Positions 25,674 to 29,061 of a stretch of DNA of 64,000 nucleotides are shown one piece after another. The translations under genes and the position numbers were made by a program. Under the pieces are notes generated by a model. That model ran no database searches. It was not told the DNA's origin and saw only the letters and a program-made list of their open reading frames with translations. Location of the stretch: the NCBI RefSeq assembly GCF_001742305.1, contig NZ_MJAT01000012.1, positions 310,001 through 374,000 of the forward strand, given 5' to 3'. Source of the stretch: Desulfuribacillus stibiiarsenatis (lineage in GTDB: Bacteria > Bacillota > Bacilli > Desulfuribacillales > Desulfuribacillaceae). The first letter of the stretch is position 1; every line of letters begins with the position of its first letter.

Positions 25674-25702
25674 AACTTGGTTGGTATAACCAAGTTTTTT
25701 TG
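25674..25702 (+). terminator. Intrinsic terminator just upstream of the GerA-GerC promoter
   Basis: A 9-bp stem (25674-25682 with 25688-25696) and a run of seven T. It would stop plus-strand read-through from the Asp23 unit and insulate the germination gene. Confidence 0.8.
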
Positions 25703-25709
25703 TATTGTG

Positions 25710-25716
25710 CATACTA
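25710..25716 (+). promoter_or_regulatory. Sporulation-sigma -10 element (sigma-G-like) before the GerA-GerC gene
   Basis: CATACTA matches the sigma-G -10 consensus exactly, 55 bases before the start codon. A well-spaced TGAATA-like -35 is not evident, so the assignment is weak. gerA-type operons are sigma-G dependent in B. subtilis. Confidence 0.35.
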
Positions 25717-25771
25717 TCCCGAATTACACAAATAATGTAATTAACAAGAATTTTGAAAGGATAGAGCATAT

Positions 25772-28501
25772 ATGGAAATCCCTAAAAGGGCAAAGCGCTT
25801 TACTGGTTTAGTAGAACCATGGAACATTCATAAAGAGCTGAGTCGAAATTTATCTGTATTAAAGGAATTATTTAAAAAAAGTGATGATGTCGTATTTAGA
25901 GACTTTTTTGTGAAATTCAACAATGTTGAAAAAAAAGGCGTAATTATATATATAGAAGGGTTAATTAATAGCGATGTGATAAACAGAGATATCCTTGAAA
26001 GAATCGTCACTGTTGATTTTTTAGTAAATCCATACCTAAAAACAGATGCGATGGATGGAAAAAAATGGATGAAAGAGTTTATCGAACGTTGTTTGTCTGC
26101 TAATAATTTAAGTCCATGTGAAACTATTACCGAGGTGAAAGATGGGATATTAAATGCACAAGCAGTGTTATTAATTGATGGTATTGACGCAGGTATCGTT
26201 GCAGGTGTAGAAGGATTTAGCTTGCGCGGAATTGATGAACCAGATTCTGGAGTCGTAATCCGTGGGCCAAGGGAAGGGTTTATAGAAAACCTTAGAACGA
26301 ATACGGCATTGATACGTAGAAAAATTAGAAGCCACCATTTAAAAGGTGAAACAATCACGGTAGGGAGAAAGACGAATACTAAAGTTTGTTTGGTATATTT
26401 AGATGACACTGTCAACCACGAAATATTAAAAGAGGTAAAAGAAAGGATACATAGAATCGAAATAGATGCGATTCTTGAGTCAGGTTATATTGAAGAACTA
26501 ATTGAAGACAATCCATTTTCGCCTTTTCCATCAATGAGTGTAACGGAAAGACCAGATGAAGCAACGGCTGCAATACTTGAGGGAAGAATAGCTATTATTA
26601 TAGACAATACCCCATTTGTGCTAATCCTCCCAATGGTATTCCAAGATTTATTGCATGTAAGTGAAGACTATTATAATCGCTACACTGGTGGTACGATGAT
26701 ACGAATTATTCGTTTTATCGCTTTATTTATTTCTTTATTTTTACCTAGCTTGTATATTGGTGTTGTCACGTTTCATCCAGAGATGTTACCGACTCCATTA
26801 TTGATAAGTATTGCTGCCGCACGGGAAGGTGTTCCATTTCCAGTAATTATTGAAGCTTTCTTAATGGAATTTACTTTTGAAGCGCTTAAAGAAGCTGGAG
26901 CAAGAATGCCAAAAGCAATTGGTTCCACAGTGAGTATCGTAGGGGCATTGATTTTGGGTGAAGCTGCAGTAAGTGCTGGGCTGGTTTCTCAACCGATGGT
27001 TATAGTCGTTGCAGGTACTGCAATCGCTGCTTTTGCAATTCCTGGTTTTGGGACCCATGCAGGAATTCGTTTTATTCGATTTATCTTTCTAATTTTAGCA
27101 GGAATTTTTGGGTTATATGGTGTTATTATAGGCTTAATGTTCATGCTTCTACATCTATGTTCTATGAGATCATTTGGTGTGCCTTACATGGCACCTTTTG
27201 CACCATTGATTACAGAAGATTTAAAGGACTCCATTGTTCGTGCCCCATGGTGGAGTTTAAAGTATCGTCCTCAATTATTCAATTGGAGGCGACAACGAAG
27301 AAATAAAACACCAAGACCAACACCGCCTATTGTCGTTCTATGTTTATGTATTTTAAGTGGTATGTTTTTAACGGGTTGTTGGAATATGGAAGAAATCAAT
27401 AATCGAGCAATAATCGGTGGTATTGGCATAGATAAAATCAAAGAGGAGGAAGATAAGGAGAATCAGATTTCTATGACGGTCCAAATCATTAAACCTGGAG
27501 TGGTGGCTGGTGCGTCCGAAGGTGGTGGCGGGGGCAATCCTAATGCAAATTGGATTCTCGATACGGAAGGAAAGAGTGTTTTTGAGGCAGCTAGAAACCT
27601 AGTGAGATATTCTGGAAGACAGATCTATTGGGGACATAATCAGGTTGTTGTCATTGGAGAAGAATTGGCTAGGGAAGGTGTAGGAACAATATTAGACTTT
27701 TTCGACCGTACTCCTGAAAATCGTCTAAGAACATGGTTTATTGTCGTAAAAGGAGAAGAAGCGAAAAAAGTTCTTTCAGCTACTCCCCACTTAGAATCCT
27801 TATTAGCAGTTGAACTTTCTTCAATGCTACAAGCAAGAAGAGATACATCATTTGCAGCTGCGATAAATTTACGTGATTTTTTATTTTTTCTCTCGATTCC
27901 CTCAAGAGCACCAGTAGCATCCGCTGTTGAGGTATACACGGACGCGGATGGAAAAGAATCACTATTAATTACCGGTAGCGCAGTATTTGACCGTGATAAG
28001 TTGATTGATTTCTATGATGAAAATCTAACGAGGGGAATACTATGGGTTGTAGGTGATGTCGATGGTGCAGTAATTCCAGTAGACTGGGATGGAATCGTAG
28101 GAGCAATTACTGCACGAGTACTTTCAGCTGGATCCAAAATCAAAACTGATGTTGAAAATGGGCAAGTCAATGTGACAATCACAATTGATATGAAAGGTAA
28201 AATTACAGAAATTGAAGAGGATATCGACTTAAGATCTTTAGAAGCATTAAAGAGTGTGGAAGATAAAGTTGCAGATAGTATAAAATCTGAAATAGAAAAA
28301 GTTATAGAAAAAGCAAAGGAAGATAAGGTCGATATCTTTGGCATCGGAGAACATGTACGGAGACAAAACCCTCGAGAATGGAAGGAGATATCACAAGATT
28401 GGAAAGAGATATTTCCCGATATCAATTTTCAGGTACAAGCAAATGTCAAAATTAAACGTTACGGTGTAACTAGAAACGTAGGAATCAGTAATTCACAATA
28501 A
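25772..28501 (+). CDS. Spore germination fusion protein: GerA family domain + Ger(x)C lipoprotein domain
   Basis: A single uninterrupted frame of 909 residues. Residues 1-~520 form a complete GerA/SpoVAF-type germinant receptor A subunit: a soluble N-terminal region, INRDILERIV, RGPREGFIENLRTNTALIRRK near 165, then about five membrane helices and the end RPQLFNWRRQRRN. Residues ~520-535 form a hydrophobic stretch ending in the lipobox LTGC (C536), followed by a full-length GerC: WNMEEINNRAIIGGIGID, GRQIYWGHN and the distal domain. Normally these are separate genes gerXA and gerXC. No in-frame start follows the GGAGG at 27285, so a polyprotein is predicted. No gerB permease gene is adjacent. 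Confidence 0.88.
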   Translation: MEIPKRAKRFTGLVEPWNIHKELSRNLSVLKELFKKSDDVVFRDFFVKFNNVEKKGVIIYIEGLINSDVINRDILERIVTVDFLVNPYLKTDAMDGKKWMKEFIERCLSANNLSPCETITEVKDGILNAQAVLLIDGIDAGIVAGVEGFSLRGIDEPDSGVVIRGPREGFIENLRTNTALIRRKIRSHHLKGETITVGRKTNTKVCLVYLDDTVNHEILKEVKERIHRIEIDAILESGYIEELIEDNPFSPFPSMSVTERPDEATAAILEGRIAIIIDNTPFVLILPMVFQDLLHVSEDYYNRYTGGTMIRIIRFIALFISLFLPSLYIGVVTFHPEMLPTPLLISIAAAREGVPFPVIIEAFLMEFTFEALKEAGARMPKAIGSTVSIVGALILGEAAVSAGLVSQPMVIVVAGTAIAAFAIPGFGTHAGIRFIRFIFLILAGIFGLYGVIIGLMFMLLHLCSMRSFGVPYMAPFAPLITEDLKDSIVRAPWWSLKYRPQLFNWRRQRRNKTPRPTPPIVVLCLCILSGMFLTGCWNMEEINNRAIIGGIGIDKIKEEEDKENQISMTVQIIKPGVVAGASEGGGGGNPNANWILDTEGKSVFEAARNLVRYSGRQIYWGHNQVVVIGEELAREGVGTILDFFDRTPENRLRTWFIVVKGEEAKKVLSATPHLESLLAVELSSMLQARRDTSFAAAINLRDFLFFLSIPSRAPVASAVEVYTDADGKESLLITGSAVFDRDKLIDFYDENLTRGILWVVGDVDGAVIPVDWDGIVGAITARVLSAGSKIKTDVENGQVNVTITIDMKGKITEIEEDIDLRSLEALKSVEDKVADSIKSEIEKVIEKAKEDKVDIFGIGEHVRRQNPREWKEISQDWKEIFPDINFQVQANVKIKRYGVTRNVGISNSQ

Positions 28502-28542: not shown

Positions 28543-28605
28543 ATTAATGTATGATTTTATGCAGGAAACAGATTCTAAGTGTAGAATACTCTATTGGTGA
28601 TGCGT

Positions 28606-29061
28606 GTGAAACGGGTAATTTATTTGGAAAGTGAATACGATAAATTAGTAAACCATATGAGTAAAATCATAAGGGATTATGAATTTTGTTGCATCGGAAT
28701 CTCTGGAAATACTGGATTAGGGAAAAGTACTGCTGTTAAACAAGTCGCATGTAATCTGAATAAAGCCATTTTAGAGTGTCATGAGTTAGAACCAGAAGCT
28801 TGGGGATGTTTAAATGATACTTTTGCTGCAGCAAATAAAACGAATCAGCTACTACTTTTCGATGGAATCATTGTTTCTTTTCATTTGCATCGTAAATTTT
28901 ATCAAGATTTGTTCCTAAGGTATTTACATGCAACAACCATTGTAATTGAACATCCCGACATCTTTCTCGAGCAAAATAATTTATCTGGGGATGTATTTGA
29001 TATCATTTTCGAGATTCGAACAAATTCAAATCATCACGTAACATATCCGTTTCTTTATTGA
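28606..29061 (+). CDS. Small P-loop NTPase-like protein of unknown function
   Basis: 151 residues from GTG 28606 (GGTGAT precedes it; in-frame ATG 28600, GTG 28597 and TTG 28594 are alternatives). A Walker A loop, GNTGLGKST, occurs near residue 36, and a hydrophobic strand ending in LLLFDG may be Walker B. The rest is not recognised. Length and layout resemble kinase-like or AAA-type small NTPases. No counterpart is known to me at this place before the rodZ-like gene. Function unknown. Confidence 0.6.
   Translation: MKRVIYLESEYDKLVNHMSKIIRDYEFCCIGISGNTGLGKSTAVKQVACNLNKAILECHELEPEAWGCLNDTFAAANKTNQLLLFDGIIVSFHLHRKFYQDLFLRYLHATTIVIEHPDIFLEQNNLSGDVFDIIFEIRTNSNHHVTYPFLY

Follow-up and report, generated by a model that had tools for sequence, protein, structure and literature searches.

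A single open reading frame of Desulfuribacillus stibiiarsenatis encodes a complete GerA subunit joined to a complete GerC lipoprotein of a spore germinant receptor, the sensor that wakes bacterial spores and whose A and C parts normally come from separate genes. The lipoprotein signal of GerC is retained inside the chain, and we consider it moderately likely that the product is a bacterial polyprotein in which the tail of a multi-pass subunit doubles as the n-region of an internal lipoprotein signal, with cleavage by signal peptidase LspA before Cys536 releasing the two subunits 1:1. The protein families and the probable function are ordinary; the A-C architecture is unusual. No published GerA-GerC fusion was found in the open-access literature.

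The fused gene and its junction

The gene lies in a stretch of 64,000 nucleotides, here called the window, to which the positions below refer. Its frame is open from ATG to TAA over 909 codons (909 aa), and the following features can be recognized in and before it.

25709..25737, plus strand: promoter-like block GCATA-N17-AATAATG upstream of the fusion in both species (see below); partial match, with weak resemblance to a forespore (sigma-F/G) promoter
25755..25761, plus strand: likely ribosome-binding site GAAAGGA, 10 nt 5′ of the ATG (direct sequence reading)
25772..28501, plus strand: fused gerA-gerC gene (open frame and translation; Pfam and NCBIfam matches; ortholog in the sister genus also fused)
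25859..27274, plus strand: GerA part, PF03323, residues 30-501, comprising the predicted core-side N-terminal domain and the membrane helices (Pfam)
27275..27328, plus strand: junction, the GerA tail of residues 502-519 including basic WRRQRRN (505-511), in place of a gerA stop and a gerC start; predicted disordered
27329..27376, plus strand: hydrophobic segment of the GerC lipoprotein signal, residues 520-535 (hydropathy; lone helix in the structure model; alignment with separate GerC signals)
27368..27379, plus strand: lipobox LTGC, with Cys536 at 27377-27379 (direct reading; identical in the sister genus)
27386..27931, plus strand: GerC N-terminal domain PF25198 (Spore_GerAC_N), residues 539-720 (Pfam, 2-175 of 176, E 7e-47)
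27971..28465, plus strand: GerC C-terminal domain PF05504 (Spore_GerAC), residues 734-898 (Pfam, 1-167 of 167, E 1e-42)

Neither the A nor the C subunit is missing any domain within the fusion. The GerA part is matched over the full length of the subunit family profile (PF03323, 3-465 of 466, E 4e-187, 623 bits against a cut-off of 27), its hydrophobic segments lie between residues 273 and 468 by hydropathy, and its N-terminal domain matches, by sequence and predicted fold, the crystal structures of the GerK3A and GerIA N-terminal domains (PDB 6o59 and 9prb). The GerC part is likewise a full-length member of the Ger(x)C lipoprotein family, matched by PF25198, by PF05504 and by TIGR02887 (residues 522-901, profile 4-371 of 371, 316 bits against a cut-off of 163), and it matches GerBC (PDB 3n54) by sequence and predicted fold. 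These near end-to-end matches within one open frame bear out the initial annotation, which had read the gene as one unbroken frame of a full GerA and a full GerC; its placing of LTGC inside the chain after the WRRQRRN stretch also holds, Cys536 being confirmed by translation.

The fusion point combines the short variable GerA tail, the site of the gerA stop in other species, with the n-region of the GerC signal. The signal has the form expected of a Ger(x)C lipoprotein, with the lipobox and its cysteine directly before a mature domain that begins CWN, except that it is internal and not N-terminal, and the mature start of the GerC part aligns with that of separate GerC lipoproteins. The hydrophobic segment before Cys536 is short (~16 residues). 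An AlphaFold model of the fusion, for which the input alignment included read-through rows, shows modules that fold separately, with a disordered link at 491-519 and an isolated helix at 520-533; with a mean pLDDT of 69 it is indicative only.

The order is represented in the genome set by one other genome, that of Desulfuribacillus alkaliarsenatis, classed there as a separate genus, and it too has the fusion, as an uninterrupted frame of 908 residues with 66% identity. The two loci have the same order of genes for a ClpP-like protein, FtsK, Asp23, the fusion, RodZ, RimO, PgsA and CinA. The WR(R/K)QRRN tail, a PRP motif, the hydrophobic segment and LTGC with Cys536 are common to both proteins, although for the lipobox two species are a small sample. 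Within residues 503-536 the two species differ at 74% of synonymous sites and at only 20% of nonsynonymous ones; the junction alignment has a single gap, of one codon, and neither of the other two frames is free of stops. Such a pattern indicates that the junction is under purifying selection, and the comparison points to strong purifying selection over the full length of the gene.

The junction of the window's species contains a single start-like codon, the ATG at residue 531, which lies within the hydrophobic segment and therefore could not supply a GerC signal. The GGAGG at 27285-27289 lacks an in-frame start at suitable spacing and is not shared by the sister species, where GTG, TTG and ATG codons occur in the hydrophobic segment without a Shine-Dalgarno sequence or basic n-region. 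Reading of the junction thus revealed, in either species, no in-frame GerC start with both a ribosome-binding site and a basic n-region. Because its start-like codons lack these signals, a separately started GerC appears unlikely in both species, and with no stop and no usable internal start a single translation product would cover both proteins.

Upstream of the gene, a clear sigma-G promoter was sought and rejected, the match being partial though conserved in both species; the conserved GCATA-N17-AATAATG block, a weak match, would fit forespore expression. Between asp23 and the fusion (25675-25701), direct reading reveals a hairpin, ACTTGGTT-AACCAAGT, followed by a T run, which looks like a transcription terminator. 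Downstream, a 155-aa ORF that matches DUF3388 and, weakly, STAND-type NTPases lies between the fusion and rodZ (28594-29061); in D. alkaliarsenatis rodZ directly follows the fusion and this ORF is absent.

Fate of the internal lipobox

In published models the A subunit has its N-terminal domain and small C-terminal tail on the core face of the spore inner membrane, with the C subunits forming a ring outside (PMC13170314), so that a fused chain would fit without rearrangement. GerAA is considered the lining of a cation channel and GerAB the germinant-binding subunit, and C subunits are lipidated with a contribution from GerF (Lgt) (PMC11841064). By family analogy, the fusion would share this topology and would serve in a germinant-gated channel. 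Genes for Lgt and LspA are present in both genomes. In D. alkaliarsenatis, three small Lgt-matching pieces also lie together at G001:C1:56921-57287, with an intact lgt elsewhere, and possibly represent a broken second copy.

The proposed sequence of events is as follows. The A and C portion of a GerA-family nutrient germinant receptor would be made as one polypeptide, whose GerA part would take its place in the spore inner membrane with both the N-terminal domain and the C-terminal tail facing the core. The basic GerA tail would act as the cytosolic n-region of the GerC signal, and the ~16-residue hydrophobic segment would cross the membrane, GerC emerging on the outer face with Cys536 at the outer leaflet. 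Lgt would then lipidate Cys536 and LspA would cut just before it, yielding a normal GerC in a 1:1 ratio with GerA, and the released subunits would assemble with a GerB made from a separate gene. That the fused A and C assemble with GerB into a germinant-responsive complex is probable by analogy with other receptors, and the explanation as a whole, including the cleavage, the equal ratio and the separate GerB, is one to which we give somewhat better than even chances.

The main alternative, a serious one although we think it the less probable, is that the signal segment stays in place as an extra membrane helix, with Cys536 perhaps lipidated and uncut, and that A and C work as one linked subunit with their ratio and place in the ring fixed. 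The topology permits this, with the A tail inside, one crossing and C outside; the some 50 residues that separate the signal helix from the final membrane helix of GerA leave enough slack, and the fusion has been retained across two genera. Against an uncut chain stand the presence of LspA and the conservation in both species of a canonical lipobox and a short hydrophobic segment, which are typical of cleaved signals. No example was found in the literature of LspA processing a lipobox within a polytopic protein, and this counts against cleavage. Because the lipobox is intact and the hydrophobic segment short, cleavage at Cys536 is nevertheless favoured as the most likely outcome, being rated about twice as probable as the uncut tether.

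A probable third subunit

No gerB was found beside the fusion among the ORFs of the window, as the initial annotation had noted; this holds for the locus but does not extend to the genome, since both species keep an orphan gerB elsewhere. A genome search of the window's species yields two gerA, two gerB and two gerC, the parts of the fusion counted. One of each belongs to an intact gerA-gerB-gerC operon on contig C1, and the remainder are the fusion and the orphan gerB (C1:290083-291027). The genome of D. alkaliarsenatis holds two complete A/B/C sets, the fusion, an orphan gerB (C1:107150-108100) and one lone gerA. The orphan GerB proteins of the two species share 56% identity, against only ~22-25% with the other GerB proteins of both genomes, and their genes have the same neighbours on both sides, as expected of syntenic orthologs. 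All three subunits are accordingly encoded in both genomes when the fusion and the orphan gerB are taken together.

The product of the fusion and that of the orphan gerB most likely form one complete receptor, because the orphan gene brings the window's genome to two A, two B and two C. Gene counts and synteny suggest that the two are probably partners; since the similarity profiles and tree of orphan GerB and fused GerA across the other operons agree only weakly, we infer this pairing from the former. The lone gerA-family gene of D. alkaliarsenatis, its fourth (L117 4405-5871; G001:C1 about 64400-65900), has no adjoining gerB or gerC, and no counterpart of it was found in the window's genome.

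It is improbable that the fusion acts independently of GerB, for instance as an auxiliary ion channel like SpoVAF, even though its locus lacks a gerB and GerA homologues that act without a B subunit are known (SpoVAF/FigP; PMC11841064). An otherwise unpaired, syntenic gerB has been kept in both genomes, and most related operons examined have A and C alongside a B gene. A SpoVAF-type protein is a stand-alone A without a GerC partner, whereas here a complete GerC is part of the same protein.

Distribution and comparison with known systems

Among other spore formers, ~70 distinct gerA-gerC pairs were resolved at the gene level, and all are separate with a stop between, at gaps of -35 to +106 nt (mostly -4 to +36), in agreement with the initial annotation that separate genes are the known arrangement. 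Searches covered samples of 399 genomes from the class and 398 from the phylum, the best two places per genome being scored, and among the matches listed no stop-free match spanning GerA and GerC occurs beyond the two Desulfuribacillus species. The classes of G435 and G579 were also searched and, with only 3 and 10 genomes, added little; over roughly 850 genomes in all, no further fusion is present among the matches listed from the best two places of each. Fusions elsewhere could have been missed by these searches, and the fusion is so far known from one small lineage only. About 12 other genomes with long open frames were considered as carrying fusions and rejected on inspection, GerA ending at its own stop in all (among them G094, G034, G024, G160, G645, G574, G651, G411, G752, G486 and G494).

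In Paenibacillus tianmuensis (L005 4001-6742), the separate gerA and gerC genes share a reading frame, and little besides one stop codon divides them. This arrangement is likely a picture of the state before fusion, from which fusion would be a small step.

That the genes are really separate or non-functional, and the fusion a sequencing or assembly error or a decaying pseudogene, is suggested by the rule of separate genes elsewhere and by the one Paenibacillus pair hardly more than a stop codon apart, but is extremely improbable given the strong purifying selection over the entire gene, junction included, and an independently sequenced ortholog in another genus with the same junction. The D. 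alkaliarsenatis AHT28 genome was sequenced to about 536-fold coverage (PMC5105095). The fusion is best regarded as a real inherited variant, because the other genome of the order has it at the same locus. The initial annotation had proposed a search for the same fusion in related spore formers, which D. alkaliarsenatis now answers, and had named two findings that would speak against it; neither is seen, as no stop is hidden at the junction in either species and the sole relative with the same flanking genes is fused too.

The number and ratio of germinant receptor subunits are still argued from AlphaFold models, with five or six protomers (PMC11841064, PMC13170314). That an A-C fusion occurs naturally and has persisted in two genera is consistent with a 1:1 ratio of A to C and with an A tail on the membrane face opposite C; the fusion also offers biochemistry a ready-made linked A-C unit. 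If the chain is cleaved, a lipoprotein signal would work inside a polytopic membrane protein, which would widen the known range of LspA substrates.

Several known systems share parts of this arrangement. Receptor gene orders vary, and Clostridium botulinum, with its divergent gerCA/gerB clusters and its split or orphan gerB genes, resembles the fusion system in having gerB apart from gerA and gerC; in that species A and C each retain a gene of their own, and its orphan gerB has no demonstrated function (PMC5083711). The GerA, GerB and GerK receptors of B. subtilis (gerA, gerB and gerC genes) likewise have full-length A and C subunits, by sequence and fold, and a B gene in the same genome, whereas here A and C form one ORF and the B gene lies far from them in the genome. 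Separate adjacent gerA-gerC pairs of Paenibacillus, relatives of Desulfotomaculum and others agree with the fusion in A-then-C order, domains and, approximately, position of the signal and lipobox, but in each pair the two genes keep separate starts and stops. In the fbcH cytochrome b/c1 polyprotein of Bradyrhizobium, an exported protein with a cleaved internal signal continues the frame of a polytopic membrane protein; the proteins concerned are unrelated to those of the fusion, and the cleavage site is one for type I signal peptidase instead of a lipobox.
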